Source: Gracilibacillus salinarum (GTDB lineage Bacteria; Bacillota; Bacilli; Bacillales; Amphibacillaceae). Taken from it: a DNA stretch of 64,000 nucleotides. The DNA is taken from positions 2,356,001-2,420,000 of the forward strand of contig NZ_CP095071.1 of NCBI RefSeq assembly GCF_022919575.1, in the 5' to 3' direction. The notes beneath the pieces are model-generated. The model saw nothing but the letters and a program-made list of their open reading frames with translations, made no database searches and was not told the DNA's origin. Position 1 is the first letter of the stretch; every line of letters starts with the position of its first letter. This document shows, piece after piece, positions 5,667 through 52,750 of the stretch. A program made the translations under genes and the position numbers.

Positions 5667-6375
5667 TCAGCAAAAAAATATATAAGTACAGCAATAGAAC
5701 AAATCATGCTGAACATCACGTTTGGTTCTTATAATATGGATTATGTAAACTAAGGCTGTATTGCAGAATGATCATTTTGATATATTTTATCTGCGTTGCA
5801 AAGCTCCGGAAATAGGCTCCGCGTCCTGTGGGCACGGCTTCAGCTAGGCTACTACTTGAACAGCATCTGTGCTGCATTGTGCCGAGGAAGCTCACTTCGA
5901 AGCGATACTTGCAGACACAGGCACAAATATAAGTGGATCTTCAGCTCGCACTGATTCCACGGGAGTCTCCGCCTATTTCCTGCGCTTAAGGGAAGTGCTA
6001 CAACTTACGGTGCAGCTAAAAGCAGTGGTTCTCGGTATTATGTTATTTAAAATCTGATATTTATGGTGCAATCAATATGCTAGCAATTCCAGAATTTGTA
6101 GAGCCAAAATCCTAGCGTAGGCCAACCACGTAGACTCCCGCGGGATTATGCAGGCGCTGAAGATCCACTTTGTGAAGCGCCCTTCTTCACAAAGTTAGCT
6201 TCAGCCGTGCCCCGCAGGACGCGGAGTGGTTGGACGGAGCGGTATCCCAGCACATGAATCATTTCAAAATTACCACTAAGCATAAAGCGGCTAGTTTACA
6301 TAATCCATATTATAGGAAGTTGTACATTATTCTGTTAGTTTGAACCGGGTGGGCTTTTCTTGTTTTTCCTATTAT
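5667..6375. repeat. Composite repeat family 1, copy 1 (complete, outer flanks inverted)
   Basis: Terminal inverted repeats TATAATATGGATTATGT (from 5730) and its complement (ending 6314) enclose module A (about 5800-6000) and module B (about 6115-6245). Module A carries the long apical insert. Module B carries the short hairpin TTTGTGAAG/CTTCACAAA. The outer flank on the left (5667-5727) matches, as reverse complement, the right flank of copies 2, 5 and 6. The outer flank on the right (6317-6375, with ACCGGGTGG) matches their left flank reversed. No gene is present. Confidence 0.85.
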
Positions 6376-6411
6376 TGGTACATTCTAAAATTTTATGTTT
6401 TCCTAATATGT

Positions 6412-6448
6412 AAAAAAGCGGAACCGTTTGGACGATTCCGCTTTTTTT
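6412..6448 (-). terminator. Bidirectional terminator after the 116-residue hypothetical gene
   Basis: AAAGCGGAA and TTCCGCTTT pair, with A and T runs on both sides, just downstream of the minus-strand stop at 6450. Confidence 0.85.
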
Positions 6449-6449
6449 G

Positions 6450-6797
6450 TTATTTATTGAAAGACTCCTGGTCAACATATCCCTCATTATCCATAATAAT
6501 TCTTAATGCCTCTTGAAAATCATCCTCAGACACTTCACACTCTAACGTGTACTCTCTCGGGTCATTATCTACTTCTAACCCTTCATCATCTTGTCTGAAG
6601 GCTGCCACAATACCACCGCCTGCTCCCATTCCAGAAGTATTGTTACCTGAATAAGTTAACGGGGTCAGAATCAGCGTATGGTCAGCATCAGGTAATTGAT
6701 CCACACGAATATCATTGGTCTTCAACTTATTTAAATCTGCCTTTACAGACTCTGCATCATTTTCCGTCTTAAAGAAAGCTTGTAATGGTTTATACAT
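6450..6797 (-). CDS. Hypothetical small acidic protein
   Basis: A 115-residue soluble acidic protein that I do not recognise with certainty. It begins KPLQAFFKTENDAESVKADL, a strand-helix pattern like that of GSP17M/YflT-type general stress proteins, has a Gly-rich centre (GMGAGGGIVAAF) and ends in a second alpha/beta segment. It may be a two-subdomain ferredoxin-like fold. The start at 6797 is chosen because GAGAGG lies nine bases upstream, whereas the in-frame ATG at 6806 abuts it. It is a single-gene unit with its own terminator. Confidence 0.6.
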   Translation of the reverse strand: MYKPLQAFFKTENDAESVKADLNKLKTNDIRVDQLPDADHTLILTPLTYSGNNTSGMGAGGGIVAAFRQDDEGLEVDNDPREYTLECEVSEDDFQEALRIIMDNEGYVDQESFNK

Positions 6798-6963
6798 TAC
6801 TCTCATCCTCTCATTTTAATGATGTACTGATTATAATGTACCCGTTTCCAAAAAAAATAAACTTTATGTAAATTTTTTTTGATCTACTGAGTTTTTAGCC
6901 AAAATCTTTAGTAAAATAAAACAGAGAGTACCATACACCTAAACAATCAAGGATGGTGACGTA

Positions 6964-8253
6964 ATGGACAAGTTAACAAAACATGAAAAAAGTTGGGTTT
7001 TTTATGACTGGGGAAGCTCTGCATATTCCATTATTATAACAACAGCTATTTTCCCCATCTTTTACAAAGCACAAGCAAGTGCAGTAGGGATCGAAGCAGC
7101 TGATTCCACGGCATATTTAGGATATACCATTTCCATTTTCACCTTTATATTGGCAATGCTAGGACCTATACTAGGAACTATCGCTGATTATAAAGGCTTG
7201 AAAAAAAGATTTTTTGTCAGCTTCATCTGTTTAGGTATTTTCTCCACCTTTGCACTTATTTTTGTTCCCGAAGGAGAATGGCTGCTGCTGTTAGTGTTTT
7301 ACACATTGGCATCTTTAGGATCTACTGGTGCAAATGTTTTTTATGATGCCTTCCTTGTAGATGTAACAGACGATAAACGGATGAATAAAGTTTCTTCTCG
7401 TGGATTTGCTCTCGGTTATATCGGTAGTGCCATTCCTTTTGTTCTTAGTATTGCTATCATTTTACTTGCCCAGCAAGGAGTCCTCCCCAATACCAGTACC
7501 ACCGCAAGTAAAGTAGCCTTTCTGATTACGTGTTCATGGTGGGCGATTTTTGCTATACCCATTATAAAAAATGTCCAACAGGTGCATTATATAGAAAGAG
7601 ATCCTAAGCCAGTCAGCCAAAGTTTCAAAAGATTATTTCGCACCATCCGCAATATTAAACAATATAAATATTTAACTTTATTTTTAATAGCTTATTTCTT
7701 TTATATCGATGGTGTAGGTACGATTATTTCAATGTCTACCGCATATGGAACAGATGTCGGTCTTAGTTCTACAGTATTGTTAGTAGTATTATTCGTTACT
7801 CAGGTCGTTGCTGCTCCATTCGCAATTTTGTACGGTAGATTAGCGGATCGTTTTTCTGCAAAAAGCATGTTAAATGTTGGTATTATTATATATATGGTCG
7901 TTTGTATTTATGGATATTTCTTAGAAACAGCATTTGATTTCTGGGTACTTGCCATGCTGGTCGCCACTTCACAAGGCGGTTTGCAAGCATTAAGCAGGTC
8001 TTACTTTGCCAAATTAATTCCAAAAAACAATGCAAACGAATTCTTTGGTTTTTACAACATTTTTGGGAAGTTCGCCTCTATTACTGGACCATTGTTACTT
8101 GGCGTTACCGCTCAAATAACCGGGAAATCTAATGCAGGAATATTAAGCTTAATCATCCTGTTTGTATGTGGAATGATCATTCTTTATTTCGTACCATCAG
8201 ATAAAAAATTCGAACAATCAAATGCTTCAACATCAGGGAGAAGTACCGTTTGA
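6964..8253 (+). CDS. MFS transporter, UMF1/Atg22-like family
   Basis: A 429-residue integral membrane protein with about twelve hydrophobic segments. The opening WVFYDWGSSAYSIIITTAIF is characteristic of the Atg22-like UMF1 branch of the major facilitator superfamily. Bacterial members are predicted effluxers, possibly of amino acids as for yeast Atg22, but substrates are unknown. AAGGATGG precedes the ATG. The next gene, glutamate dehydrogenase, lies 66 bases downstream on the same strand without an intervening terminator, so co-transcription and an amino-acid link are possible; this is inference. Confidence 0.8.
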   Translation: MDKLTKHEKSWVFYDWGSSAYSIIITTAIFPIFYKAQASAVGIEAADSTAYLGYTISIFTFILAMLGPILGTIADYKGLKKRFFVSFICLGIFSTFALIFVPEGEWLLLLVFYTLASLGSTGANVFYDAFLVDVTDDKRMNKVSSRGFALGYIGSAIPFVLSIAIILLAQQGVLPNTSTTASKVAFLITCSWWAIFAIPIIKNVQQVHYIERDPKPVSQSFKRLFRTIRNIKQYKYLTLFLIAYFFYIDGVGTIISMSTAYGTDVGLSSTVLLVVLFVTQVVAAPFAILYGRLADRFSAKSMLNVGIIIYMVVCIYGYFLETAFDFWVLAMLVATSQGGLQALSRSYFAKLIPKNNANEFFGFYNIFGKFASITGPLLLGVTAQITGKSNAGILSLIILFVCGMIILYFVPSDKKFEQSNASTSGRSTV

Positions 8254-8289
8254 GTCAATCGGGTATAGGGAACAACATTCTGTAGATGA

Positions 8290-9687
<1,398 letters not shown>

Positions 9688-9808
9688 CCGGAATTACGTC
9701 CCCCCCCTTCCCTTTCTCGTACATGTAAATAATGAGGAAGCGAATTGGTTAGCTGAAGCAGGGCATATCCTTTTTTATAAGAACGCTTAGAAGCAAAATA
9801 CCTTGAAG

Positions 9809-9851
9809 AAAGCAACTGTTTTGTCACAAATGACACTCCAGTTGCTTTTTT
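9809..9851 (+). terminator. Rho-independent terminator of gdhA
   Basis: AGCAACTG (9811-9818) pairs with CAGTTGCT (9839-9846) and six T follow. The rest of the gap 9688-10000 holds a C8 run at about 9700-9707 and an AT-rich promoter-like stretch (TATAAT-like text near 9937) before the acyltransferase gene; no further gene is visible. Confidence 0.8.
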
Positions 9852-10000
9852 GTCATTTGGATACCTCAGGACTTTTTACTCAAATTAACGAACAATATCC
9901 AGTATTCTCATATTCACTATCTCTTAGTAATCATGTAATATAATAATAGCGTACTACTGCTTATAGTTACTGGAAATAAAAAGGAAAGCGAGGTACTGCA

Positions 10001-11185
10001 ATGAGCATCGAGAAAAAACCAAGTAAATGGGTAAAGAACTTCCTATTATCAAGTATACATCTCTATTTAAGGAGAACGACAACCTTTAAGGTAACAAGAA
10101 ATGATACAAAAGACATACAGCCTCCGTATTTAATCGTCAGTAACCATGTTAACAACTGGGATCCATTATATATTAATCTTTTTGTAGATGAGCCGATTTC
10201 ATTTATCGCAGGTGAACCACTTTTTCGCAAACCATTACTAAAAAGAGTATTAGATTATACAGGCGCTATCCGTAAAACGAAGTTCAAAAATGACACCAGT
10301 ACAATCCGCAATGCAATCAAAGCGAAAAATCACGGCCGAGTTATTGGACTTTTTCCTGAGGGAAACAGGAATTGGGATGGTGTGACAGAGCCTGTTATCT
10401 ATTCAACAGCTAAATTAGTAAAATTGCTAAAAATTCCGGTAGTTGCGGCCAAAATTAAAGGTGGCTATTTAACGCATCCACGTTGGGGCGACGGTGATCG
10501 AAAAGGTACAATTGAAATAAGTTATCAAAAGATATGGGACACAGAAGAAGTAAGCAATCTCTCTGTTGCAGAGATTCATCAAACACTGACAACTTCCCTA
10601 TATCATGATGAAATGGAATGGCAAAAAGAAAAAGGCTATCGCTTCCGAGGTAAGCATAATGCGCATTATCTGGAGAGGCTTCTATTTGTATGTCCAGCCT
10701 GCGAGTCCGTAGGCTCCATGCATTCTGATCATGATACCTTTTCCTGTACATCCTGTCATTATCAGGTTACGTATACAGAACAAGGCTTCTTCGCTGGGGA
10801 ATCATCCAGATTCGACACACCACATCAGTGGAGCGACTGGCAATTACAAGCGTTGAATCAAATCATTCTTGATCCACCACAAATGGAAGATATCGTTACC
10901 TTATATCGTTCAATAGATCAGAAGCCTTTCGAGAAACTATTAGAAGGTACGATTCATTTAAAGGAAAATACAATTACGTTTGCAGCAGAAGATGGTGCGA
11001 GACAGACCTTCTTTTTAGATGATATGGAAGCTGTTAATATCCACTTTCATCATAAGCTAAGCTTCTTTCATGATGATCATCTATACGAAGTGATTTTTAC
11101 CAGTCCTCGTTCCTCTTGCTATCAATGGTTACAAATGATCCAGCGGCTGCAGCAGAATCTGTTAGAAAAGGAGCAGACTTCATGA
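10001..11185 (+). CDS. PlsC-like 1-acyl-glycerol-phosphate acyltransferase with C-terminal zinc ribbon
   Basis: A 394-residue protein. The N-terminal half is a lysophospholipid acyltransferase: NHVNNWD near 48-54 is the NHx4D catalytic motif and FPEGNRNWDG near 118 is the phosphate-binding motif. The C-terminal part carries CPAC (231-234) and CTSC (249-252), a rubredoxin/zinc-ribbon-like knuckle pair, then an unassigned tail of about 140 residues. The acyltransferase half should act at the membrane face on acylated glycerol phosphate or a related lipid; the tail's role is unknown. The stop overlaps the start of the glutamate symporter gene. Confidence 0.8.
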   Translation: MSIEKKPSKWVKNFLLSSIHLYLRRTTTFKVTRNDTKDIQPPYLIVSNHVNNWDPLYINLFVDEPISFIAGEPLFRKPLLKRVLDYTGAIRKTKFKNDTSTIRNAIKAKNHGRVIGLFPEGNRNWDGVTEPVIYSTAKLVKLLKIPVVAAKIKGGYLTHPRWGDGDRKGTIEISYQKIWDTEEVSNLSVAEIHQTLTTSLYHDEMEWQKEKGYRFRGKHNAHYLERLLFVCPACESVGSMHSDHDTFSCTSCHYQVTYTEQGFFAGESSRFDTPHQWSDWQLQALNQIILDPPQMEDIVTLYRSIDQKPFEKLLEGTIHLKENTITFAAEDGARQTFFLDDMEAVNIHFHHKLSFFHDDHLYEVIFTSPRSSCYQWLQMIQRLQQNLLEKEQTS

Positions 11186-12555
11186 CAGGTACATGGGATT
11201 TTGTCCTCGACTTTATTTATATATCTATTATCTTAGCAATTGCGACTGTGTTTAAAACAAGAATTCCGATCTTAAATAAATTAATCATCCCCACTTCCAT
11301 GATTGCCGGATTTATCGGTCTTCTGTTAGGAGAAGAACTATTAGGAATTATTCCATTTGATCAGGATATGCTCGGTAATCTTGTCTATCATTTAATGGCA
11401 ATCGGCTTTATTGCTCTTTCTCTCAAGGAGCGTAATATGGAAAATACGCCAGGTGTCATGAACGCGGGTATGCTAATTGTTACGGGCTATGTTCTACAAG
11501 GGATTATTGGTTTTGGTTTGTTTCTGTTATTAGTAGAAACAATCTATCCAGATTTCTTCCCCGGTATCGGTCTGTTGTTACCACTAGGCTTTGGTCAAGG
11601 ACCTGGTCAGGCTTTTTCCATTGGTACACAGTGGCAAGAGCTTGGTGTAACAGGTGGAGGCAACCTCGGACTGACGATCGCTGGAATCGGATTTATTTGG
11701 GCAACATTAGTTGGTATCATTTTTATGAATCTATTAGCGAAACGATATCGCACCGCTTCTAAATCCAAACAAGATACAACACATGACAAATTAGTAGAAA
11801 AAATGGAACCAGATGAAATTCCGCTCGGAGATGCTATTGACAAACTGACGTTCCAGGTAGCCTTAATCGGGACTATTTATTTCATTACGTATATCACCAT
11901 TTATGGCTTAAGTGATTTACTCTCCCCTATTGGAGCGTTCGGAGAAACCTTAGGACAGTTGTTAATCGGCTTCCACTTCATTATCGGAAGTCTGTATGCT
12001 GTACTATTCCGTATCATCTTAAATAAACTTAAAAATCGTGGTTTCAAATTAGAACACACACCGAATAACTATTTATTGCAGCGTATTGCTGGTTTCTCTT
12101 TTGATTATATGATTGCAGCTGCGATTACTGCCATTTCGATTTATGCCTTACAGGATTACTTATTACCAGTAGTGATCATTACCACGGCTGGCGGTCTTAT
12201 TACCATTTTATTCTTTGTATGGATTATTCCAAGAGTGTATCCTGAGGACGTATTACCGAACATTCTTGGATTCTACGGCATGCAGACAGGAACGATTTCA
12301 ACGGGAATGGCGCTGGTCAAAGCTGTGGACCCAAAATTCCGTTCCAATACAACAGACAATCTTGTGATGGGTAGCGGGACAGCATTACTTTTCGGTTTTC
12401 CGTTATTACTTATTTTAAACATTCCAGTAGTTGGATATGTACAAAATCAACCAATTATGTATGTGTATACGATGCTAGCTTTAATTATTTATTTTGCCGC
12501 GCTTCTCGGAGGAATTCTTTGGCGCACTAGAAAAAAGAATAAGATTCGTTCGTGA
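11182..12555 (+). CDS. gltS: GltS-type sodium/glutamate symporter (ESS family)
   Basis: A 457-residue membrane protein with two repeated hydrophobic halves joined by a cytoplasmic loop near residues 190-230. It matches the ESS family, including the Gly-rich reentrant text GFGQGPGQAFSIGTQWQ and the matching second-half loop GFYGMQTGTISTGMALV. It should import glutamate with sodium. The start ATG 11182 follows AAAGGAGCAGACTTC and overlaps the acyltransferase stop, so the pair is coupled. It is longer than E. coli GltS (about 400 residues). Confidence 0.85.
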   Translation: MTGTWDFVLDFIYISIILAIATVFKTRIPILNKLIIPTSMIAGFIGLLLGEELLGIIPFDQDMLGNLVYHLMAIGFIALSLKERNMENTPGVMNAGMLIVTGYVLQGIIGFGLFLLLVETIYPDFFPGIGLLLPLGFGQGPGQAFSIGTQWQELGVTGGGNLGLTIAGIGFIWATLVGIIFMNLLAKRYRTASKSKQDTTHDKLVEKMEPDEIPLGDAIDKLTFQVALIGTIYFITYITIYGLSDLLSPIGAFGETLGQLLIGFHFIIGSLYAVLFRIILNKLKNRGFKLEHTPNNYLLQRIAGFSFDYMIAAAITAISIYALQDYLLPVVIITTAGGLITILFFVWIIPRVYPEDVLPNILGFYGMQTGTISTGMALVKAVDPKFRSNTTDNLVMGSGTALLFGFPLLLILNIPVVGYVQNQPIMYVYTMLALIIYFAALLGGILWRTRKKNKIRS

Positions 12556-12621
12556 ATTACTTCTTGTATGGGGAAAAATACGTTAAGATATACATGTATC
12601 TAAACATTGAGGAGGAGTTAT

Positions 12622-13236
12622 ATGTTTAAAAAAATTGCAAGTGACGCTTTAGGATTAAGTGATATTGGTAAGATCATTCTTCCAGAAGATTTTGACAAAA
12701 CAGACTCTGATGATTATGTATTACATGAAGATGGGGAAAAGATTCATTTTCTAATCAAATCAAAATCAGATGAATATTGCTTTACTAATCGCGCTTTGAT
12801 CCACCTCGACGGTGAAAAAGCTTCCAGCAGTAAACGAAACATCTTCCGTTACGATTACTATCAGCATCAAATTCGTCATGTTTCCGTTGAGACAGCTGGA
12901 ACAATCGATTTAGATTTGGAAATTAAATTTTCGATTGGCAACCAAGCCCTTTCCGTCGATATTGACAAAAAAGAAGGCGAAGCAATCGCAGACTTATATA
13001 AATCATTAGTAAAAATCTCACACATTCAGGATGAAGAGTCACGAATGAAAGATTTTGCTAAAGACAGTTTACAAGCTTCACAGTCTCTTTTTACCGACAA
13101 CCGATTCCATGATGGAAATATCGCAACCGAATTTGAGAAAGCAACCCATTTTGCCTATGACTGGTTTCAGGCTACTTACAACGAGAATACTCGTAAAGAT
13201 TTCGGCGAAGTATTTGAAAAATATATCCAAAACTAA
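12622..13236 (+). CDS. PH-domain protein with YvbH-like oligomerisation region
   Basis: A 204-residue soluble protein. Residues about 1-125 resemble the bacterial PH domain (bPH_3/DUF1696), with DEYCFTNRALIHLDGEKAS as a strand-turn-strand core. The C-terminal 70 residues are helical and match the YvbH extension that mediates oligomers. GGAGGAG lies before ATG 12622. Related proteins are widespread in Bacillus and lack a firm function. A terminator follows immediately. Confidence 0.8.
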   Translation: MFKKIASDALGLSDIGKIILPEDFDKTDSDDYVLHEDGEKIHFLIKSKSDEYCFTNRALIHLDGEKASSSKRNIFRYDYYQHQIRHVSVETAGTIDLDLEIKFSIGNQALSVDIDKKEGEAIADLYKSLVKISHIQDEESRMKDFAKDSLQASQSLFTDNRFHDGNIATEFEKATHFAYDWFQATYNENTRKDFGEVFEKYIQN

Positions 13237-13246
13237 GCAACAAGAA

Positions 13247-13282: not shown

Positions 13283-13309
13283 CTATCATCTATTCTCATC
13301 TAATAGAGA

Positions 13310-13962
13310 AAAACCGAGCAACCCCGCCCGGTTTTATTGAAATAAATTATATATATAACTTCCTATAATATGGATTATGTCAACACATAGGCTGTATTGC
13401 TGAATGGTCATTTTGAAATATTTTATCTGCTTAGCAAAGCTCCGGAAATAGGCTCCGCGTCCTGTGGGCACGGCTTCAGCTAAATTAGGAAAGAAAATAC
13501 TTTTCTTTCCTAATTGGATCTTCAGCTCGCGCTGATTCCACGGGAGTCTCCGCCTATTTCCTACGCTAATGGGAAGTACTACAACGATTGGAACAGCTAG
13601 AAGCAGTGGTGCTTAGCAATGTATTTCATCAATTATGGTATGAATCTTGCAGATAGTGCTTCATATCCTAGCTGTCGAATAAATTGTGGAGCTACACATC
13701 AGCGGAGGCCAACCACGGAGACTCCCGCGGGATTGTGCAGGTGCTGGAGATCCACTTTGTGAAGCGTTCTTCTTCACAAAGTTAGCTCCAGCCGTGCCCC
13801 GCAGGACGCGAAGTGGTTGGCCGAAGCGGTATCCCAGCACATTAAATATATCAATATGAATGCTTGGCTAGCGATGGGTTAGTTGACATAATCCATATTA
13901 TAGGAACTCCACTTCATATTCCATATGATCACTGCTGTGACTGCACTTTTATGCTTTCTTTA
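13310..13962. repeat. Composite repeat family 1, copy 2 (complete)
   Basis: Inverted repeats at 13361-13384 and 13882-13905 (CCTATAATATGGATTATG and complement) enclose module A (about 13435-13568) and module B (about 13706-13832). Module A's tip is AATTAGGAAAGAAAA (13483-13497) and its complement at 13501-13515; module B's tip is TTTGTGAAG/CTTCACAAA. The outer left flank has ACCCCGCCCGGTT; the outer right flank has CTGCTGTGACTGCACTT and reaches the stop codon of the DUF1722 gene. Confidence 0.9.
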
Positions 13963-14406
13963 CTATCCAGAAAGAATCGATTGGACTTGCACATACTTTT
14001 TCTGAAAAAGCCATGCCCACTCTGCTATTTGATGCAAAATCTCTGGCAGCTGTATACTCCCTTCACGATATTTTGTAAGTTTCCATAAAAATTGATCTTT
14101 CTCCTCTACGGTTAACTCCTCTCGAAAATACCCAAACATATGACTGACAGCATTTGCTACCACTCCACGAGAAGGAATGTCACTTATTAATGCAATCCTT
14201 CCTTGCACTTCTTTACCTATCTTTGTTATTTCTAGCTGTTGATGATTAGCAATCACTCGTCCTATTTCTTTTTGTGTAGCTGGCGCTAGTGCCATTAGCA
14301 GATATTTATGTCTTGTTTGAAAAGCAACAAGATTTGCCTGTGTCGCGTTATCAGCAATTTCAGTCATCAACATTTTTCTGTAATAGTTAAATTGAAGTTG
14401 GTTCAT
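13963..14406 (-). CDS. DUF1722 (YbgA-like) protein
   Basis: A 147-residue protein corresponding to the DUF1722/YbgA domain. The family text is FQTRHKYLLMALAPATQKEIGR near 30-50, and the C-terminal half is helical. Its biochemical role is not established; in other bacteria it is found next to photolyase genes. Here it is divergent from a photolyase gene with 76 bases between starts, which supports a linked role in light-damage response. AAGGAG is six bases ahead of the chosen ATG 14406. No DUF523 partner domain is fused. Confidence 0.8.
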   Translation of the reverse strand: MNQLQFNYYRKMLMTEIADNATQANLVAFQTRHKYLLMALAPATQKEIGRVIANHQQLEITKIGKEVQGRIALISDIPSRGVVANAVSHMFGYFREELTVEEKDQFLWKLTKYREGSIQLPEILHQIAEWAWLFQKKYVQVQSILSG

Positions 14407-14482
14407 CGTCATCTCCTTACATTTTTACGTTCATCAGAAGTAATAACGGGTATACTACAAATAGAATAGTGAGGTGCCTACA

Positions 14483-23144: not shown

Positions 23145-23236
23145 ATTTATGTAGTATGGATATACTGCGAAGTAAGTTCTAAAACAGATCTAGAAAAAGC
23201 GTGATCATATGAATAGGAAAACATTTTATTTCGATT

Positions 23237-23757
23237 TGGTCATTTTGATATTTTTAATGTGCTTGGCAAAGCTCCGGAAATAGGCTCCGCGTCCTGTGGG
23301 CACGGCTTCAGCTAACTTGGTAAAGAAAATTCTTTTCTTTACCAAGTGGATCTTCAGCTCGCGCTGAGGCATGAGGAGTCTCCGCCTATTTCCTACGCTT
23401 AAGGGAAGTGCTACAACGATTGCAATAATCAAAAGCAACAGTTCTAGGCATTATTCTAGTAGTAGTGTAGGATGAACGTTTATGAATAACACTCAAAAAT
23501 ACTACAACCTACATCAGTTGTAGAGCCTAAATATTAGCGTAGGCCAACCACGGAGACTCCCGCGGGATTGTGCAGGTGCTGGAGATCCACTACGTCTGCA
23601 CCTGCGTCTACTAGTAACGCTTCGAAGTAGGCTTTCTCGGTGCAAGGCAGCAGTGAAGTAATTCGGGTAGTTGCCTAGCTCCAGCCGTGCCCCGCAGGAC
23701 GCGGAGTGGTTGGACGGAGCGGTATCCCTGCACATTATCTATTTCAAAATGATCTAT
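23237..23757. repeat. Composite repeat family 1, copy 3 (modules intact, ends lost)
   Basis: Module A (about 23265-23400) has the tip ACTTGGTAAAGAAAA at 23315-23329 and its complement at 23333-23347. Module B (about 23541-23730) carries the long apical insert. The terminal inverted repeats and the outer flanks seen in copies 1, 2, 5 and 6 are not recognisable. No gene lies in 23145-23869. Confidence 0.85.
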
Positions 23758-25329: not shown

Positions 25330-25505
25330 AATTCTTATCCAGAGAGATGGAGGGGCAGGCCCAATGAAATCTCGGCAACAGGTTGTATGGAATAAACACT
25401 GTGCCAAATCCTGCGGTGTAACGAATATGTTGCAACCGGAAGATAAGAAGGAATGCTGATACACTGACAACCTTCTTATCACAGACCGATAGGAAGGTTT
25501 TTTTA
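25330..25505 (+). ncRNA. SAM-I (S-box) riboswitch with terminator
   Basis: The conserved S-box elements are in order: TTATCCAGAG at the P1/P2 entry, GGAGGGGCAGGCCC, AATGAAATCTCGGCAACAGG, then the closing strand. P1 pairs TTCTTATC (25332-25339) with GATAAGAA (25442-25449). The terminator is AACCTTCTTATC (25469-25480) against GATAGGAAGGTT and a T run to 25505. GATAAGAAGG (25442-25451) also pairs perfectly with CCTTCTTATC (25471-25480), giving the antiterminator. High SAM should favour P1 and termination, shutting off sulfate assimilation. Confidence 0.93.
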
Positions 25506-35101: not shown

Positions 35102-35765
35102 TAAAAACCGAGCATAAACCACCCGGTCCTAATTGACTTCATTAATAAACAACTTCCTATAATATGGATTATGTAAACTAACTGCTTAGCGGTACGGTAA
35201 TTTTGAAATGTTTCAAGTGCTAGGATACCGCTCCGTCCAACCACTCCGCGTCCTGCGGGGCACGGCTGAAGCTAACTTTGTGAAGAAGGGCGCTTCACAA
35301 AGTGGATCTCCAGCACCTGCACAATCCCGCGGGAGTCTCCGTGGTTGGCCTACGCTAGGATGATTGCTCTACAACTGATGTCATAGGAAGGATATCGATT
35401 GCTATCTACATAAATCAGTCACCATTTTTATAATTTATAATGCCTAGCACCACTGCTCACAGCTATTTCAAACGTTGTAGTACTTCCCTCAAGCGTAGGA
35501 AATAGGCGGAGACTCCCGTGGAATCAGCGCGAGCTGAAGATCCACTTATGAAAGAAAAGAATTTTCTTTCATAAGTTAGCTGAAGCCGTGCCCACAGGAC
35601 GCGGAGCCTATTTCCGGAGCTTTGCTAAGCAGATGAAAACTATCATAATTAACTCCATGTCAGACATTTCCAGTTGACATAATCCATATTATAGGAAGTC
35701 CGTTTTATGTTCCATAAGATTACTGCTGTGACTGCACTTTTGTACTTTCTTTGCTTACAAGATGA
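35102..35765. repeat. Composite repeat family 1, copy 5 (complete, interior inverted)
   Basis: Inverted repeats at about 35155-35178 and 35674-35697 enclose module B first (about 35225-35357) and module A second (about 35495-35630), the reverse of copies 1, 2 and 6. Module A's tip is ACTTATGAAAGAAAA (35544-35558) and its complement at 35562-35576. The outer flanks keep the same orientation as in copies 2 and 6: CCACCCGGTCCTAATTGAC on the left and CTGCTGTGACTGCACTT on the right. Confidence 0.9.
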
Positions 35766-45372: not shown

Positions 45373-45389
45373 GAGTGCCTCCCCCCCCT

Positions 45390-46037
45390 TTAATCATTTT
45401 TTAATAATTTGGCACGGTATTTTTCACTGGATAAATCTCTAAGTTCCTGGCATTCTCCTTCCGTTAATACTCTTGGAGTTCCAACCATACAGGAAATCGC
45501 ATACACTTTTGCTGCCTCTTCCGTAAGCTGCATAAAGAAATAGGCTTCCTTCAGCGATTTGCCAACCGTTAATACGCCATGATTGCGCATGATAACAACA
45601 TCTGTTTCTGTTATCACATTTGCAACTGCATCTGCGAGTACTTGTGTTGTCGGAATCATGTAATCTAAGTACCTAACTTGCTTCACCATTGCTGGGAAAT
45701 CGGGAAACATACTCGGAATATCTTTTTCTGCAGAACCCACACTGACGCTATAACTAGGATGTGCATGCAGAACTGCTGTGATATCCGGTCTCTTTCTAAA
45801 ACATTCTAAATGCATGAGCACCTCAGAAGATGGCTTTATATTCCCTTCCACTTCCCCTGTGGTAATATTGACTTTCACCCATTGATCCTCTTGAATTTCT
45901 TTCAAATCAAATCCGCTCGGCGATATATACATTTCATCGCCATCCCGCACACTTAAATTACCTCCTGCCCCTACTACCAATCCGGTATCCACTAACTTTG
46001 CAGCATAGTTAGATAATGCTTGTTTACTTACGACCAT
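45390..46037 (-). CDS. fucA: L-fuculose-1-phosphate aldolase, class II
   Basis: A 215-residue Zn aldolase of the AraD/FucA family. It shows GAGGNLSVRD, ISPSGFDLKEI and KPSSEVLMHL; zinc His residues are in LHAHPSYS near 93-95 and in RNHGVLTVG near 155, and the acid Glu is in KPSSE. It splits L-fuculose 1-phosphate into dihydroxyacetone phosphate and L-lactaldehyde. The related L-rhamnulose or ribulose-5-P enzymes share the fold; operon context favours fuculose. AAGAGGATGG is before the ATG. Confidence 0.88.
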   Translation of the reverse strand: MVVSKQALSNYAAKLVDTGLVVGAGGNLSVRDGDEMYISPSGFDLKEIQEDQWVKVNITTGEVEGNIKPSSEVLMHLECFRKRPDITAVLHAHPSYSVSVGSAEKDIPSMFPDFPAMVKQVRYLDYMIPTTQVLADAVANVITETDVVIMRNHGVLTVGKSLKEAYFFMQLTEEAAKVYAISCMVGTPRVLTEGECQELRDLSSEKYRAKLLKND

Positions 46038-46055
46038 TTTCTCTTCACCATCCTC

Positions 46056-46487
46056 TTAAGAAATAACACCTTTTTTTAAAATAATGTTGGCGTATAATGC
46101 TTGTTCTGATGTAGCTATAATTGCATGCGCTTCCTTCGCACGTTCATAAAACGCAAATCGCTCCAAGAATCCTATCTGTTGCTTCGTTACTTGGTAGTTC
46201 CCTAAAATCTCCTGATATTCTTTCCAAATAGCTGGCGCATGCACACTATCCCCTTCCACTACTTGCATTAGATGGACCGGCTGTTCCACATAAGTATCTA
46301 CAGGCAACAGTTGCAAAATGGCTTCTAATAATCTCGGAATATCATGACCATCACAACGGATCAATCTGTTAGCATGACTAGCTGCAGGGAAATTGCCATC
46401 CCCCAAAACAATTTCATCACCATGCCCCATTTCATGAAGTATTTTCAATAAATCAGGTGAAATAATACTCGGTATTTGTTTCAACAT
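46056..46487 (-). CDS. fucU: L-fucose mutarotase (RbsD/FucU family)
   Basis: A 143-residue protein with the family opening LHEMGHGDEIVLGDGNFPA, including the catalytic His near 22, and the C-terminal tail ending YANIILKKGV. It interconverts alpha and beta anomers of fucose, supplying the form used by FucI. GGGGGAG precedes the ATG. It lies between the regulator and the aldolase genes. Confidence 0.9.
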   Translation of the reverse strand: MLKQIPSIISPDLLKILHEMGHGDEIVLGDGNFPAASHANRLIRCDGHDIPRLLEAILQLLPVDTYVEQPVHLMQVVEGDSVHAPAIWKEYQEILGNYQVTKQQIGFLERFAFYERAKEAHAIIATSEQALYANIILKKGVIS

Positions 46488-46513
46488 AGCTAGACTCCCC
46501 CTTTCCCTGAAGC

Positions 46514-47539
46514 TTAATAACTAATTTTACAGGTAGATTTACGAATGTGGATATCAGGTGGTAACACTACTTTTCTCTGGTTGTTAACCTGTTTTTGCTC
46601 CACCCGTTCCATTAGAAATTGAATACCGATTTTGCCCATCTCATTAGCCGGCTGTGCAGCAACAGTAAAGAATGGGTCAAAATATGCGACAGGTTCCACT
46701 TCATCAAAACAAACGACCGACATATCCTTTGGTACCTGCAGCCCCAATTCTCTTACTGCCTTCATGACACTGATGGCAATAAAATTATTAGCGGCAAATA
46801 TTGCGGTGGGACGTTTTTCCGGCTCTGACTTTATGAGTCTATCCACGATGATCTTCGCGCTATCTTCCTCGACATTTCTATAGTCAATTTCTGAGATGTA
46901 ATGCTCATACACAGGCAGGTCATTTAACTTCAACGTTTCTGTATAACCGCGCTTCCTTTCTCTTGCAGTCGAGACATTTGATGGTCCATTGATGAGCGCA
47001 ATATTATGGTGACCGTTGTCAATGAGGTGCTCGACAAGTTTTCGGCTGCCTTCATAGCTGTCTCCTACTACATAATCTCCTGAAAATCCTTCAATCAATC
47101 TATCAATCAGAACTACCGGAATACGGTGCCGCTTAAAACGCTCAATTTGCTCGAGCGTTTTATCACTAGTAGGAGCAATAAGTACTCCATCAACCCGTGC
47201 AGAAAGCATCATATCGATATAATTGATTTCCTTTTCACTATCTTCATCCGTATTGCTCATCAAGACACGATACCCCCTTTGGACTGCTGCATCCTCAGCT
47301 CCTCTTGCAATCTTTGAAAAGAAAGGATTCGATATATCGGTCAAAATAAGCCCCAATGTCTTTGTCTGATTAGAGATTAAACTCCGTGCAGCAGAATTCG
47401 GTATATAGCCTAATTCTTTGATTGCTATTTCTACTTTTTCTCTCGTTTCATTTCTTATATTAGGAGCTTTGTTAATTACTCTGGATACGGTCATTGGTGA
47501 TACATTTGCTTTTTTAGCAATATCATAGATTGTCACCAT
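46514..47539 (-). CDS. LacI-family regulator of the fucose genes
   Basis: A 341-residue LacI/GalR protein. The N-terminal helix-turn-helix is TIYDIAKKANVSPMTVSRVI and the hinge helix SAARSLISNQTKTLGLIL. The periplasmic-binding-like ligand domain follows. It is the first gene of the catabolic operon and divergent from the importer. The intergenic region has mirror-image 15-bp sites, its probable operators. L-fucose or a phosphorylated intermediate is the likely inducer (inference). Confidence 0.88.
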   Translation of the reverse strand: MVTIYDIAKKANVSPMTVSRVINKAPNIRNETREKVEIAIKELGYIPNSAARSLISNQTKTLGLILTDISNPFFSKIARGAEDAAVQRGYRVLMSNTDEDSEKEINYIDMMLSARVDGVLIAPTSDKTLEQIERFKRHRIPVVLIDRLIEGFSGDYVVGDSYEGSRKLVEHLIDNGHHNIALINGPSNVSTARERKRGYTETLKLNDLPVYEHYISEIDYRNVEEDSAKIIVDRLIKSEPEKRPTAIFAANNFIAISVMKAVRELGLQVPKDMSVVCFDEVEPVAYFDPFFTVAAQPANEMGKIGIQFLMERVEQKQVNNQRKVVLPPDIHIRKSTCKISY

Positions 47540-47565
47540 AGGCTTCTACCTCATTTATCATTTTA

Positions 47566-47781
47566 TTGGTACCGATAACATTTATATTCAAAAAAATAGA
47601 GTATATAACTACCTCTCCCAAAATGGAAAAACATGTTAGGAAAACAATTAGTATATTTTTATTATAAAATCACGACAACACACATAAAAATTTAGTATTA
47701 GCATTTGAATCTTTTTGCTCCCGATAACTGTAAGCGCTATTTTATACAAATGACTGCATAAGATTCTGTTATCGGTACCAA
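47566..47781. promoter_or_regulatory. Divergent control region: paired LacI-type operators and a cre site
   Basis: TTGGTACCGATAACA (47566-47580) and its exact reverse complement TGTTATCGGTACCAA (47767-47781) flank the divergent promoters 201 bp apart. A weaker version, TTGCTCCCGATAACT, lies at 47715-47729 and overlaps a -35-like TTGCTC. TGTAAGCGCTATTT at 47729-47742 fits the CcpA cre consensus with one mismatch and covers the -10-like TATTTT. This suggests DNA looping by the LacI-type protein plus catabolite repression. Confidence 0.7.
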
Positions 47782-47816
47782 AGCTTCGAGACTATGGAAA
47801 AGAAAGGAGTTTACAG

Positions 47817-49307
47817 ATGTCCGAAAAAATATTGGAAATGACCAGCATTACTAAATCTTTCCCCGGAGTGAAAGCATTATCGAATGTACAATTAGATTTA
47901 AATAAAGGAGAAGTTTTGGCATTGGTTGGGGAAAATGGTGCAGGAAAATCAACATTAATGAAAATACTGACCGGCATTTATCAGATGGATCAGGGCAGCA
48001 TCAAGTATAACGGTACAGACATAGCGCCATCCCACACAAGGGAAGCGCAGGAGCTAGGTATCAGTATGATTCACCAGGAACTAAATCTAATGCCAGACTT
48101 AACGGTTGCCGAAAATATATTCATAGGGCGTGAACCAAGGGATCGGATGCGGTTCTTTTTAAGAAATAAAGATTTGAATCAGCAGGCAGCAGCATTGTTT
48201 GAAAAATTAAACATCGATTTACAACCAAAGAAGAAAATCGCTGACTTAACGGTTGCCAAACAACAAATGGTCGAAATCGCCAAGGCACTATCTTTTGAAT
48301 CTAAAATACTAATAATGGATGAACCAACTGCTGCATTGACAGATAAGGAAATTGACAAATTATTTGATATCATTCTCTGGTTAAAAAAAGAAGGCGTGGG
48401 AATCATCTATATTTCCCATCGTATGGAAGAATTGAAGCGGATTGCAGACCGAATCACCGTTATGAGAGATGGCGAATATATCACAACGTTACCGATTGCC
48501 ACAACCGAAATAAAAAAGGTCGTCTCTTTGATGGTTGGCAGAGAAGTAGCAATGGAGCAAAAAAAGTCAGATCCAAGTATCTATTCAGATACCGTTCTTG
48601 AAGTAAACAACATTTCTAATACCTATTTAAAGAACGTATCTTTTCATCTAAACAAAGGGGAAATACTAGGATTTGCCGGATTGGTTGGTGCCGGCAGAAC
48701 GGAAGTTGCCAGAGCTATATTTGGAGCAGATCCTTTTACCGGTAACATCAGGATAAACGGAAAGACTGTTTCGATTAATCAACCAGCAGATGCAGTAAAG
48801 CATGGAATAGGCTATTTATCAGAGGATAGAAAGCAATTTGGTTTATTGCTAGAGATGAGTGTCAAAGACAATATCGTACTTTCTTCTATGAAAAATTATG
48901 CCAAAGCTGCTTTTGTCCAGCCTAGCCCTATATCAGCAGATGCAGAGAACTATGTCGCACGATTAAAGGTGAAGACACCTAGTGTGAATCAGCCGGTAAA
49001 ACTGCTATCTGGTGGTAATCAGCAAAAGGTTGTTATCGCTAAATGGCTTCTGAAGGACTGTGATATTTTGATTTTTGATGAACCGACAAGAGGGATTGAT
49101 GTCGGTGCTAAACAAGAAATCTATGACTTATTAGAAATGCTGGCAGCAACCGGCAAATCTATTATTATGATCTCCTCTGAATTACCCGAAATACTTCGAT
49201 TAAGTGATCGTATTATCGTCATGAACGAAGGAAGCATAACTGGAGAATTATCAAGTAAAGAAGCGAATCAAGAGAAAATTATGGAACTTGCTACAAGCCA
49301 CCAATAA
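47817..49307 (+). CDS. Sugar ABC importer ATPase (RbsA/MglA type)
   Basis: A 496-residue double ATPase of the CUT2 sugar importers. The first half has GENGAGKST near 36 and MDEPTAALTD; the second half has LSGGNQQKVVIAKWLL and FDEPTRGID, and its degenerate Walker A (GLVGAGRTEVAR) is normal for the family. AAAGGAG precedes the ATG. It is divergent from the fucose regulator, so it probably energises L-fucose uptake. A family 2 repeat starts at the stop codon. Confidence 0.88.
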   Translation: MSEKILEMTSITKSFPGVKALSNVQLDLNKGEVLALVGENGAGKSTLMKILTGIYQMDQGSIKYNGTDIAPSHTREAQELGISMIHQELNLMPDLTVAENIFIGREPRDRMRFFLRNKDLNQQAAALFEKLNIDLQPKKKIADLTVAKQQMVEIAKALSFESKILIMDEPTAALTDKEIDKLFDIILWLKKEGVGIIYISHRMEELKRIADRITVMRDGEYITTLPIATTEIKKVVSLMVGREVAMEQKKSDPSIYSDTVLEVNNISNTYLKNVSFHLNKGEILGFAGLVGAGRTEVARAIFGADPFTGNIRINGKTVSINQPADAVKHGIGYLSEDRKQFGLLLEMSVKDNIVLSSMKNYAKAAFVQPSPISADAENYVARLKVKTPSVNQPVKLLSGGNQQKVVIAKWLLKDCDILIFDEPTRGIDVGAKQEIYDLLEMLAATGKSIIMISSELPEILRLSDRIIVMNEGSITGELSSKEANQEKIMELATSHQ

Positions 49308-49444
49308 AGTGAGACTTTGATCAGTGGGGTTTTTGATCCCCATTGATCATTAGCGAAACTTAGCAGGGTGTTAGCGTCTGTTTACTCCCACTTAGCTTCT
49401 TTGTGTGAAGTGGGAGTATTACGAACGGTTAGCACCGTGATAAA
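49306..49444. repeat. Family 2 hairpin repeat, full-length, inside the importer operon
   Basis: The repeat begins AAGTGAGACTTTGATCAG, overlapping the importer ATPase stop codon, and ends GTTAGCACCGTGATAAA just before the permease ribosome binding site. Internal hairpins are TGATCAGTGGGG.../...CCCCATTGATCA and CTCCCACTT.../AAGTGGGAG. It fills the whole intergenic gap. Confidence 0.75.
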
Positions 49445-49463
49445 TATGAAGGGGTGAAAGTTA

Positions 49464-50459
49464 ATGACCACAGATATTGCAAATTCTCACGCGACTGCTC
49501 AGAAGAAATACTTTAAAGGAACGGGAGCATTGCAACAAATTCTTGCCTTTGCCAGTTTAATTATTTTAATTATCTTTTTTTCTATTGCGTCGGACAATTT
49601 TCTGCATTGGTCAAATATTGAGGGAATACTGCTATCCACTACTGTTATCGGTATCCTGGCATTAGGTACTACCTTTGTCATCATAACAGGAGGAATCGAC
49701 TTATCCATTGGTACAGGGATGACATTGACGTCTGTTATGACAGGTGTATTCATTGTCTATTTAGGACTGCCTCTCTCTGTCGGTATTATCGGAGGTATTT
49801 TGTCTGGAGCATGTATTGGATTTATTTCCGGGTTTTCAGTGTCGATTCTGCGTATTCCACCATTTATTGCAACATTGGCAATGATGATGATTGCAGAGGG
49901 CTTATCGCTCGTTATATCCGGAGCTTCACCGATTTATTTCAGCGATATCGAAGGATTCAATTCGATTGCTTTAGGTTCTGTCATTCCAGGCATATCGATT
50001 CCTAATGCTATTTTAGTATTCTTTTTCATGGTTTTGATTGGCTGGGTTTTATTATCCAAGACCATTGTCGGTCGCTATACCTTTGCAATCGGCAGTAATG
50101 AAGAAGCAACAAGACTCTCGGGAATTAATGTGAAAAAGTGGAAGTTGATCATCTATACGATTGCAGGATGTTTCACAGGGGTTGCTGGTGTTATCATGGC
50201 TTCTCGTTTAAATTCTGCTCAGCCCGCTCTAGGAATGGGTTACGAATTGGAAGCGATTGCAGCAGTGGTGATTGGCGGAACTTCTTTAAGTGGCGGCAAG
50301 GGTTCCTTAATTGGAACGATGATTGGTGCCTTAATCATGAGCGTACTAACAAACGGCTTGCGCATCATGTCCATACCTCAAGAATGGCAAACAGTAGTGA
50401 TTGGGTTCGTCATCTTACTGGCTGTTTATTTTGATATGTTAAGGAAAAAGAATGCCTGA
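49464..50459 (+). CDS. Sugar ABC importer permease (RbsC type)
   Basis: A 331-residue CUT2 permease with about nine or ten hydrophobic segments. The family text is TFVIITGGIDLSIGTGMTL near 72, and the cytoplasmic coupling loop reads ATRLSGINVKKWKL with GGTSLSGGKGSLIGTMIGAL downstream. GGGGTG precedes the ATG. It forms the channel of the predicted L-fucose importer. Confidence 0.9.
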   Translation: MTTDIANSHATAQKKYFKGTGALQQILAFASLIILIIFFSIASDNFLHWSNIEGILLSTTVIGILALGTTFVIITGGIDLSIGTGMTLTSVMTGVFIVYLGLPLSVGIIGGILSGACIGFISGFSVSILRIPPFIATLAMMMIAEGLSLVISGASPIYFSDIEGFNSIALGSVIPGISIPNAILVFFFMVLIGWVLLSKTIVGRYTFAIGSNEEATRLSGINVKKWKLIIYTIAGCFTGVAGVIMASRLNSAQPALGMGYELEAIAAVVIGGTSLSGGKGSLIGTMIGALIMSVLTNGLRIMSIPQEWQTVVIGFVILLAVYFDMLRKKNA

Positions 50460-50517
50460 TGGAATCAACTCTTTTTAGGAGTTATTCATACAAAAATCTG
50501 CAAAGGGGAGTTAATCA

Positions 50518-51546
50518 GTGAAGAAGAGAATAATGTTCGCTATACTAATTGTTTTTACGTCACTTTTATTCGTGTTGGCAGCATGTGGTAACGAATCAGA
50601 ACAGGAGGCAAGTGATTCTGGTTCTGGGGACACAGAATCATCAGACAATGAAAAGGCTGCGGAAGAAGACTCTGGCAAACCGTATATAGCCATTATATCT
50701 AAAGGATTCCAGCATCAATTTTGGCAAGCTGTCCAGAGTGGCGCTGAAAAAGCTGCGGAAGAATTTAATGTAGAGATTACGTTTGAAGGACCAGAAAATG
50801 AATCACAAGTTGATAAGCAAATGGAAATGCTGCGGGCAGCTTTGGATAAACAGCCAGATGCTATCGGTTTTGCGGCATTAGATTCACAAGCTTCCTCTCC
50901 CTTATTAGAAGAAGCCGATGAAAAAGGGATTCCTATTATTGCCTTTGACTCTGGTGTTGATAGTGAGATACCGCTAACAACAGCGTCTACAGATAATTAT
51001 GCAGCCGCAGCTCTAGCCGCCGACAAAATGGCTGAGTTAATTGGTGAAAAAGGAAAGATTGCTCTTGTCGTTCACGATCAGGTTTCTGTTACAGGTGCAC
51101 AAAGACGCGATGGTTTTGTCGAAACCATCGAGGAGAAATATCCTGATATTGAAATTGTCGATGTACAATATGGTAAAGGTGACCATTTAGAATCAACAAA
51201 CCTTGCCAAAACCATGATGCAGGCAAATCCTGACCTTGCCGGAATTTATGGCTCCAATGAAGGTTCTGCGATAGGTGTGGTCAATGCTGTAAGAGAATTA
51301 GGCAAAGAAGAAGAAGTAACCGTCATCGGTTTTGATTCAGGCAAACAGCAAATTGACGCTATCAAGGACGGCGTGATGGCCGGAGCAATCACCCAGAACC
51401 CTGAAGGAATAGGCTATGAAACAGTCAAAGCAGCGGTAAGTGCCATAAATGGTGAAGAGGTACCGGAAAATATTGATACTGGTTTCTATTGGTATGATCA
51501 AACGAATTTGGAAGATGAAGAGATTCAGGCGGCTGTTTATGAGTAA
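50518..51546 (+). CDS. Sugar-binding lipoprotein of the ABC importer (RbsB type)
   Basis: A 342-residue binding protein. The signal peptide ends in the lipobox LFVLAACGN with the lipidated Cys near 22, followed by a low-complexity Ser/Asp/Glu linker to about 50 and a two-lobed periplasmic-binding domain (PYIAIISKGFQHQFWQAVQS; FDSGVDS; IGFDSGKQQIDAIKDG). It should capture the sugar outside the membrane and deliver it to the RbsC-type permease. GGGGAG precedes the start at 50518. Confidence 0.9.
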   Translation: MKKRIMFAILIVFTSLLFVLAACGNESEQEASDSGSGDTESSDNEKAAEEDSGKPYIAIISKGFQHQFWQAVQSGAEKAAEEFNVEITFEGPENESQVDKQMEMLRAALDKQPDAIGFAALDSQASSPLLEEADEKGIPIIAFDSGVDSEIPLTTASTDNYAAAALAADKMAELIGEKGKIALVVHDQVSVTGAQRRDGFVETIEEKYPDIEIVDVQYGKGDHLESTNLAKTMMQANPDLAGIYGSNEGSAIGVVNAVRELGKEEEVTVIGFDSGKQQIDAIKDGVMAGAITQNPEGIGYETVKAAVSAINGEEVPENIDTGFYWYDQTNLEDEEIQAAVYE

Positions 51547-51598
51547 GAATTCACTATAAAAACGAAGCGTCTACTTCTTCAAGCTAATAGTTAGTCGA

Positions 51599-51650
51599 TC
51601 CGTTATCCTCACGTCTTACTCGTAATAGACTTAAGATGGAGGATAACGGA
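51599..51650 (+). terminator. Long inverted repeat after the importer operon
   Basis: TCCGTTATCCTC (51599-51610) and GAGGATAACGGA (51639-51650) pair perfectly, with an inner TCTTA/TAAGA pair. No strong T run follows, but its position suits transcription termination or 3' end protection. Confidence 0.6.
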
Positions 51651-51664
51651 CCATTAGTGATAAA

Positions 51665-52750
51665 AGAAAAACCGCCCATAAACCACCCGGTCCTAGTTGA
51701 CTTCATTAATAAACAACCTTCTATAATATGGATTATGTAAACTAAGGATATATGGCAAAACGGTCATATTGAAATATTTTATCTGCGTTGCAAAGCTCCG
51801 GAAATAGGCTCCGCGTCCTGTGGGCACGACTCATAGCCGTCAAGTTAAGGTAATGCTGTTAAAAAGAAAAGTGAATATGTTGCCGTAATGAATACAAGTT
51901 ATCTATTGTGCAGTGATTCTTTGTGAGTTGAGTGTAAGATATCATTTATAGTAGCTTTTCCTGAAGTATTGGCACAAGAAATCGGATTTTTGACCGCAAG
52001 AGTCCTTTTGATATCCTTGAGTGGTCATATTTTTGATTCTTATGGACAACTTTTACTCTTTCTCTTTTCAACTGTCCATAAGACCCATTCTTATAGACAA
52101 CTTTTGCTCTTTCTCTTTTCAACTGTCCATAAGAATGAATTATATGATAGGCCGAACATGTAAGACAGTTTAAGCTCACTTTTCCTTAGCTTGACGGCTA
52201 TGGGGCACGACTTCAGCTAGGCTACTACTTGAAAAGCATCTGTGCTGCCTTGTGCCGAGGAAGCCCACTTCGATGCAATGCTTGCAGACACAGGCACAAA
52301 TGAAGTGGATCTTCAGCTCGCGCTGATTCCACGGGAGTCTCCGCATATTTCCTACGCTTAAGGGAAGTGCTACAACGCATGGAACAGCAAAAAGCAGTGG
52401 TTCTAAGCATTTTTCAATAACTATTATATATGTATACGATCAATATTCTAGCTCTACCAAAAATTGTAGAGTCCCAATACTAGCGTAGTCCAACCACGGA
52501 GACTCCCGCGGGACATGCAGGCGCTGAAGATCCACTTTGTGAAGCGATCTTTCTTCACAAAGTTAGCTTCAGCCGTGCCCCGCAGGACGCGGAGTGGTTG
52601 GACGGAGCGGTATCCCAGCACATGAATCATTTCAAAATTACCACTAAGCATAAAGCAGCTAGTTTACATAATCCATATTATAGGAACCTATCTTCCTATT
52701 CAGCATGATTACTTCTACGACTGTACTTATATACTTTCTTTGCTTATAAA
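51665..52750. repeat. Composite repeat family 1, copy 6 (complete, interrupted by an insertion)
   Basis: Inverted repeats CTATAATATGGATTATG (from 51721) and complement (ending 52683) enclose module A (split by a 371-bp insertion) and module B (about 52484-52607). Without the insert the interior is nearly identical to copy 1 towards its right end, yet the bases just outside the right repeat differ completely from copy 1 and instead match copies 2 and 5. The outer left flank (51665-51718) matches copy 5. Confidence 0.9.
51832..52202. mobile_element. Non-autonomous IS231/IS4-like cassette nested in repeat copy 6
   Basis: Terminal inverted repeats are CATAGCCGTCAAGTTAAGG and its complement with one mismatch (CCTTAGCTTGACGGCTATG). 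They resemble the IS231 ends that start CATGCCCATCAA. A perfect 10-bp target duplication GGGCACGACT lies at 51822-51831 and 52203-52212; IS231-type elements make 10-12 bp duplications. There is no transposase frame. Inside, two tandem 44-nt hairpin units (52039-52082 and 52090-52133) begin CTTATGGACAA or CTTATAGACAA and end TGTCCATAAG. Confidence 0.8.

Follow-up and report, generated by a model that had tools for sequence, protein, structure and literature searches.

Introduction

Reports on Acinetobacter describe oppositely oriented pXerC/D pairs with identical cores on plasmids, which invert reversibly and give hybrid C/D half-sites (PMC9947245), xrs cassettes for which no excision was seen when they were assayed in Escherichia coli (PMC11705084), and a chromosome with 22 dif sites (PMC12907356). 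Other reports describe the inversion of mba by Ureaplasma XerC (PMC3599477) and dif predictions in which candidates were picked by their single occurrence (PMC3025954). Here we analyze a stretch of 64,000 nucleotides from the chromosome of Gracilibacillus salinarum (NZ_CP095071.1, positions 2,356,001 to 2,420,000; hereafter the window, whose own numbering is used for its features), in which four copies of a composite repeat carry their interior in either orientation between fixed outer ends. Comparison of the copies in this and related genomes suggests that the repeat is a non-coding element resembling a miniature inverted-repeat transposable element (MITE), the interior of which would be inverted by the host XerCD recombinase at two facing dif-like sites. 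We assign this reading a probability of about 75%.

With the dif modules of Acinetobacter (pXerC/D, pdif or xrs) the element shares inversely oriented dif-like sites, a common core as in the active pairs, and hybrid half-sites of the kind that inversion leaves (PMC9947245, PMC11705084, PMC12907356). Those modules, however, carry genes and lie on plasmids or chromosomal islands, whereas the element described here is non-coding, dispersed in about 200 copies, provided with outer ends of its own, usually located downstream of terminators and found in Bacillota. Facing sites and a shared core were thus found, but gene cargo was not, either in the four interiors of the window or in the three long interiors that were read. 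The phase-variation loci mba/UU172 of Ureaplasma and cwpV of Clostridioides difficile similarly combine short inverted repeats with an inverting recombinase, but they are single and gene-bearing, and the excerpts at hand do not present their repeats as copies of dif. The recombinase that inverts cwpV is Xer-like. Bacterial MITEs and other intergenic repeats are also small, non-coding, high-copy, intergenic and rich in hairpins; they differ in that the literature found describes no invertible, Xer-bounded interior among them, and the present element lacks a target duplication. Group IIC introns insert in a single orientation just behind intrinsic terminators. The element has this target in common with them, but in the window only an S-adenosylmethionine (SAM) riboswitch reached the Rfam gathering score. 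No comparable chromosomal non-coding element was found in the full-text literature searched, which does not include most subscription papers.

Four copies bounded by facing dif-like sites

A first-pass annotation of the window had reported four composite repeats with common outer flanks. All four were found at the places given, and each is bounded by a pair of facing dif-like sites starting at 5726/6294, 13360/13882, 35154/35673 and 51718/52662. They are called copy 1, copy 2, copy 5 and copy 6, corresponding to the starts of their first sites (5726, 13360, 35154 and 51718). Genomes are given as codes, G000 being the genome that holds the window (one contig, 4.80 Mb) and G011, G007 and others its Gracilibacillus congeners. 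The sulfate adenylyltransferase of G000 shows 97% identity to its Gracilibacillus caseinilyticus counterpart, which places the genome in this genus. The parts of the four copies are the following:

5660–5725, minus strand: outer end Q of copy 1 (class by flank scoring; the flank profile places its outer limit some 68 bp away from the site)
5726–5750, plus strand: dif-like site of copy 1, XerC arm outward and XerD arm inward, 1 mismatch
5751–6293, plus strand: interior of copy 1, module A adjoining Q (flank and module classes)
6294–6318, minus strand: dif-like site of copy 1, 0 mismatches
6319–6372, plus strand: outer end P of copy 1, GC-rich hairpin and T run, terminator-like in the outward direction (flank profile, folding, class)
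13306–13359, minus strand: outer end P of copy 2 (missing in G011 along with the whole unit)
13360–13384, plus strand: dif-like site of copy 2, 1 mismatch
13385–13881, plus strand: interior of copy 2, module A adjoining P (interior alignment, class)
13882–13906, minus strand: dif-like site of copy 2, 1 mismatch
13907–13964, plus strand: outer end Q of copy 2 (flank profile; empty site in G011)
35103–35153, minus strand: outer end P of copy 5 (flank class)
35154–35178, plus strand: dif-like site of copy 5, 0 mismatches
35179–35672, minus strand: interior of copy 5, inverted, module B adjoining P (interior alignment, class)
35673–35697, minus strand: dif-like site of copy 5, 1 mismatch
35698–35760, plus strand: outer end Q of copy 5 (flank class)
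51667–51717, minus strand: outer end P of copy 6 (flank class; empty site in G011)
51718–51742, plus strand: dif-like site of copy 6, 2 mismatches
51743–52661, plus strand: interior of copy 6, module A adjoining P, with an unrelated insertion at 51832–52202 (class)
52662–52686, minus strand: dif-like site of copy 6, 0 mismatches
52687–52750, plus strand: outer end Q of copy 6 (flank class; empty site in G011)

The 25-bp inverted repeat that bounds each copy consists of an outward arm TTCCTATAA, the core TATGGA and an arm TTATGTAAAC; the window contains eight matches to this site, as compared with none in 100 dinucleotide shuffles. Judged by their sequence, the terminal repeats are dif-like Xer sites, which the first-pass annotation had not recognized. 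The outer ends P (the CCACCCGGT side) and Q (the CTGCTGTGACTG side) of all four copies scored higher than every shuffled flank, confirming that the flanks are shared; a single seed with a stricter cut-off failed to pick up P of copy 1. Read outward, P is a hairpin followed by a T run. Module A adjoins P in copies 2 and 6 and Q in copies 1 and 5, just as had been described earlier, and the reported switch of flanks between the otherwise similar copies 1 and 6 was also reproduced: a 75-nt stretch in their B halves is 100% identical, and different outer ends lie beyond it. Copy 6 exceeds the others in length because of a 371-nt insertion within module A. By eye, the outer ends share a TAAGAAA-like start.

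Orientation of the interior and linkage of the half-sites

Loci were fetched around the listed sites, not from whole genomes, and units were chosen for facing sites, unpaired sites (33 in G000 and 25 in G011) being set aside. Facing dif-like sites bound all of the 121, 85 and 32 units parsed in G000, G011 and G007, respectively. The module next to P was A in 76 and B in 42 units of G000 (3 of 121 unscored), A in 31 and B in 24 units of G011 (30 of 85 unscored), and A in 11 and B in 10 units of G007 (11 of 32 unscored), where modules A and B denote the two ends of that genome's own reference interior. Genome-wide alignment of the copies and scoring of their orientation had been proposed with the first-pass annotation; the outer flanks were shared and the orientation was not fixed.

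Linkage between site alleles and their surroundings was clearest in G011 (51 elements, 102 ends). Positions -1, 0, 2, 4 and 6 showed linkage to the outer end but none to the interior, the reverse holding for positions 22 and 25 of the inner arm and position 27 just inside it; core position 12 was tied to neither the outer end nor the module. A rerun with 55 elements returned identical positions. Each of the combinations P/A, P/B, Q/A and Q/B had its own pair of half-sites (15, 21, 18 and 18 of the 102 ends), the remaining 30 ends representing other alleles or mixed cells. The alleles of the XerC arm therefore follow the outer end and those of the XerD arm follow the interior, which indicates that exchange takes place inside the site. 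The outer side behaves similarly in G000, where positions -1, 0, 2 and 4 were linked to the outer end (position 0 was weakly tied to the module too, by 0.06 bits, as expected from the unequal A:B ratio), and in 21 units of G007, where positions -1, 0 and 2 were so linked. Both cores of a unit are identical in 100 of 121 units (G000), 70 of 85 (G011) and 22 of 32 (G007), exceeding all of 5000 shuffles, the maxima of which were 99, 52 and 17.

The most direct case is a pair of G007 units, L302 and L311, which are identical in P (60/60 bp) and Q (60/60 bp) and agree at 594 of 600 positions of the interior, but have that interior in opposite orientations; their likeness declines further out (L311 appears as L203 in the final counts, for which longer flanks were used). 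Across the three genomes, six unit pairs reach similarity cut-offs of 0.85 for P and Q and 0.90 for the interior; three of them are opposite and three in the same orientation. In G000, 67 pairs have interiors that agree to 90% or more, and 29 of these pairs are opposite. The pair L067/L244 was classed as opposite by flank scoring, but its alignment was collinear and it was left out of the counts. Inversion between the terminal repeats, one of two explanations offered in the first-pass annotation, gains from both the half-site linkage and the G007 pair, and inversion of the interior between the sites is well supported by these comparisons.

Two facing sites with an equal core form an arrangement that fits inversion of the XerCD type. 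In the proposed mechanism the unit is read as Q, site, interior, site and P, the two sites being inverted so that the XerC arms lie outside and the XerD arms inside. Recombination between both sites of one unit would invert the interior and leave P and Q unmoved. The site suggests the host XerC/XerD pair (CodV/RipX) as the recombinase; the core, being unlike that of the host dif, would keep the host dif out, and proximity would favor inversion within a unit over exchange between units.

Relation of the sites to the host dif

In G000, 413 sites were found at up to three mismatches (none with a reversed-pattern control); G011 has 252 sites, and G007 has 122 that follow a variant of the pattern. 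Judged by these site patterns, G011 and G007 are the two congeners, out of 16, that share the family. As the sites were found by similarity to a consensus, their variability is understated. The host dif of G000, at C1:530032, is a single TATATA site, nearly opposite on the circle to dnaA at C1:2941764, and thus differs in its core from the TATGGA of the element. In the 15 congeners besides G000 and G011, the dif pattern had exactly one match in 13, two weak candidates in G001 and none in the incomplete G003; the last two were left out of the host dif consensus, which was built from 15 of 17 genomes. Over the 19 of 22 arm positions taken into the comparison, the consensus of the element sites agrees with that of the 15 host difs at 19/19 arm and 4/6 core positions in both G000 and G011, and at 16/19 arm and 3/6 core positions in G007. 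Compared with the dif of the same genome, the agreement in the arms is 18/19, 18/19 and 15/19 (G000, G011 and G007, respectively). The variability of arm positions in the host difs is correlated with that in the elements in G000 (rho 0.51, p 0.025) and G011 (rho 0.49, p 0.032), and not significantly in G007 (rho 0.25). Whereas dif is present once per chromosome near the terminus, the 413 element sites of G000 are spread over the chromosome.

In a search of the genus for the element, 14 of the 15 other congeners were among the matches listed, 13 of them matching the hairpin modules at about 70–80% and one, G006, matching solely at its own dif. Among 16 such loci that were viewed, dif-like sites were present in both of those of G007, as a degenerate pair in G010 (L221), and as the dif of G006 (L224). 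An origin as an integrative mobile element exploiting Xer was rejected, as the sites are spread along the chromosome and not integrated at the host dif. A phage origin was likewise rejected: IMG/VR contained no exact pattern match, and copy 5 had no match in plasmid or phage records, in a search from which near records may be left out. One match was found in a Bacteroidetes metagenome-assembled genome. Palindromic TTTACATAATATTTATTATGTAAAC sites with two XerD-like arms face to face were seen at C1:434039 and C1:449691 of G000, both less than 100 kb from dif, and at C1:3540028 of G011.

Alternative explanations for the inverted interiors

Homologous recombination, or template switching during replication, between the short inverted repeats could also invert the interior, the likeness to dif being incidental or otherwise used. 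Block exchange does occur, at C1:1012332 and C1:819485 of G000, and correlations between the distance matrices computed for P, Q and each end of the interior are weak (rho 0.03–0.18 in 77 units), the value of 0.178 in the Mantel test of the two interior ends pointing to mosaic interiors and making homologous exchange among copies likely. On the other hand, inverted repeats of about 21–25 bp are short for homologous recombination, their arms equal the genus dif at 19 of 19 tested positions, and in G011 the linkage breaks within the site; we therefore consider this route unlikely as the source of the inversions. It is more improbable still that another tyrosine recombinase is responsible, either the protein encoded beside the G000 dif or an integrase of a mobile element. 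The candidate gene, at L031:311-1399 next to C1:530032, encodes 362 aa, its end lying some 100 bp away from the host dif; we take its product to be XerS-like. PF00589 matches number 11 in G000, 12 in G011 and 5 in G007, and a 345-aa tyrosine recombinase with an equal score is common to G000 (C1:3151788) and G007 (C11:71733). However, none of the 12 matches of G011 lies beside its dif, and two of the mere five in G007 resemble the pair of the other genomes. Finally, two old lineages with opposite interiors might have been spread by transposition, with no flipping at present. Orientation is indeed kept in three of the six pairs alike in P, Q and interior, but the G007 pair, in which the ends are the same and interiors of 99% identity are opposite, and the 29 opposite pairs among 67 in G000 make such a history very improbable.

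Several results count against inversion by XerCD at the dif-like sites. In G000 no inner-arm position reached linkage at p 0.005, module linkage being confined to positions just inside the site (26–28), and in the 21 units of G007 no position was linked to the interior at this threshold. The agreement of cores in G000 lies only narrowly above the shuffles (100 versus a maximum of 99), and the two ends of a unit could agree in their cores partly because they share an ancestor. The assembly of G007 is a draft of several contigs, so that the opposite pair found there is open to misassembly, although even then both types of junction would have to exist in the reads. Nine loci have both flanks orthologous between G000 and G011; at two of them the inverted alignment of the interiors scores higher, in one case by a narrow margin (213 versus 185), and seven are collinear. 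These interiors are never the best match of each other (rank 2–107 of 118), and the nine loci therefore say little on rates. Interiors also travel between loci as whole blocks, as gene conversion can bring about: the units at C1:1012332 and C1:819485 are alike at 526 of 527 positions of the interior and the inner site parts but have unlike flanks, the identity ending within the outer arms, and either whole-module Xer exchange or homology-limited gene conversion would fit. Units less than 100 kb from dif number 7 of 121 against about 5 expected; this value, near expectation, argues against frequent exchange between units in that region, which is probably not frequent. Both orientations are, moreover, known here from assembled sequences of different copies.

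The mobile unit and its target

At the G011 place orthologous to copy 2, the missing sequence comprises 55 bp on the P side and 58 bp on the Q side together with the interior between them, and at that of copy 6 the unit is missing, with 28 bp between the aligned flanks. Among the other 12 places compared with G011, several hold diverged pieces of the unit (by eye, the place of copy 1 is among them), and the rest represent larger changes. Because P, interior and Q are absent together in the two clean cases, the stretch from P to Q constitutes the inserted unit and the outer ends are part of the element. Empty sites in relatives, which the first-pass annotation had advised looking for, thus exist, and the element inserts as a unit in the way of a MITE. 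On the strength of the same two places, the second explanation offered there, insertion into a fixed target in either orientation, was rejected.

In the 97 G000 and G011 units whose Q end was located, the sequence preceding Q (50 nt) is T-rich at its end and has a median folding energy of -13.5 kcal/mol; the corresponding values are -6.6 for more distant sequence and -5.2 past P. On the Q side, the closest open frame of at least 90 codons, counted as a frame and not as an annotated gene, points toward the unit in 97 of 113 G000 units. Most units appear to have been inserted immediately after an intrinsic terminator, to which their Q end is adjacent. In 93 of 103 scored units (from a first set of 111) the orientation of the unit agrees with the direction of the replication fork, for which the terminator target can account. 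No target duplication was supported, one of at least 5 being present in 5 of 66 units versus a shuffled mean of 6.1. A TTGACA-like hexamer lies ahead of the TATAAT in P-side sites, in most cases at 19 nt; of 176 P ends, 64 agree with it at no fewer than five of six positions, compared with 2 of as many Q ends and 12 of 352 shuffles. A general promoter scan at the P-side site called nothing in two copies, and TATAAT is absent from the G007 site; a promoter at this place may be taken as a lead.

A second type of Q end, Q2 (beginning with CTCAACTTCATCTTCTTTATCGTAGGGCGATGCAGG), was noticed in G000 and G011 at several loci, e.g. L039, L108, L120 and L185, and looks as if another repeat had joined the element. 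A facing pair of sites lies just downstream of a xer gene at L203:2239-2888 (G007) and L205:2223-2975 (G011); the xer gene of L203 is probably xerD, because it follows a fur-like gene.

Structure of the interior and possible consequences

The unit measures about 650 bp, and its interior contains two long hairpins. The interiors were aligned starting from 71 in the length class, of which 50 diverse ones were taken; 34 were printed and 27 retained after seven had been removed by hand. RNAalifold's own consensus of the 27 gave a covariation term of +0.37 with double changes at 7 of 81 pairs, which is little support by itself. In the A hairpin, the tip helices of which were named by hand, changes on both sides were counted in 40 cells, versus 10.3 in shuffles and 1–6 when the helices were slid. 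No open reading frame of at least 120 aa overlaps the four interiors of the window. The three long interiors that were read contain a 376-codon transposase-like frame, presumably of the IS110 type, in L150 (G000 C1:4344500-4350000), and otherwise no frame longer than 112 codons. As far as its reading frames indicate, the element is non-coding and MITE-like.

A chromosome is expected to have one dif, but about 400 dif-like sites with the arms of dif, a different core and an arrangement in facing pairs are tolerated here. This makes it possible to test the restriction of XerCD to one dif, the separation of site classes by the core alone and local Xer-driven inversion outside the terminus, and the natural orientation-variant pairs could serve for measuring inversion. 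A more speculative and rather doubtful extension is that a terminator-targeted element has recruited the dimer-resolution machinery to form about 200 independent switches, in which flipped hairpins next to a gene's terminator would change read-through or a small RNA, so that a population would hold many combinations. If this were true, the read-through or small RNA of each locus would change state whenever the hairpin pair beside the terminator is flipped.

Other features of the window

Two degenerate copies of the interior, with no site at up to nine mismatches, were also present:

222–449, minus strand: degenerate interior copy
23198–23750, plus strand: degenerate interior copy

The 371-nt insertion in module A of copy 6 (51832–52202) ends in inverted repeats (CATAGCCGTCAAG), is flanked on either side by the 10-bp direct repeat GGGCACGACT, contains two copies of a 48-nt tandem repeat, and is probably another small mobile element. 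The SAM riboswitch lies at 25332–25449, and the frames downstream of it include one for sulfate adenylyltransferase.

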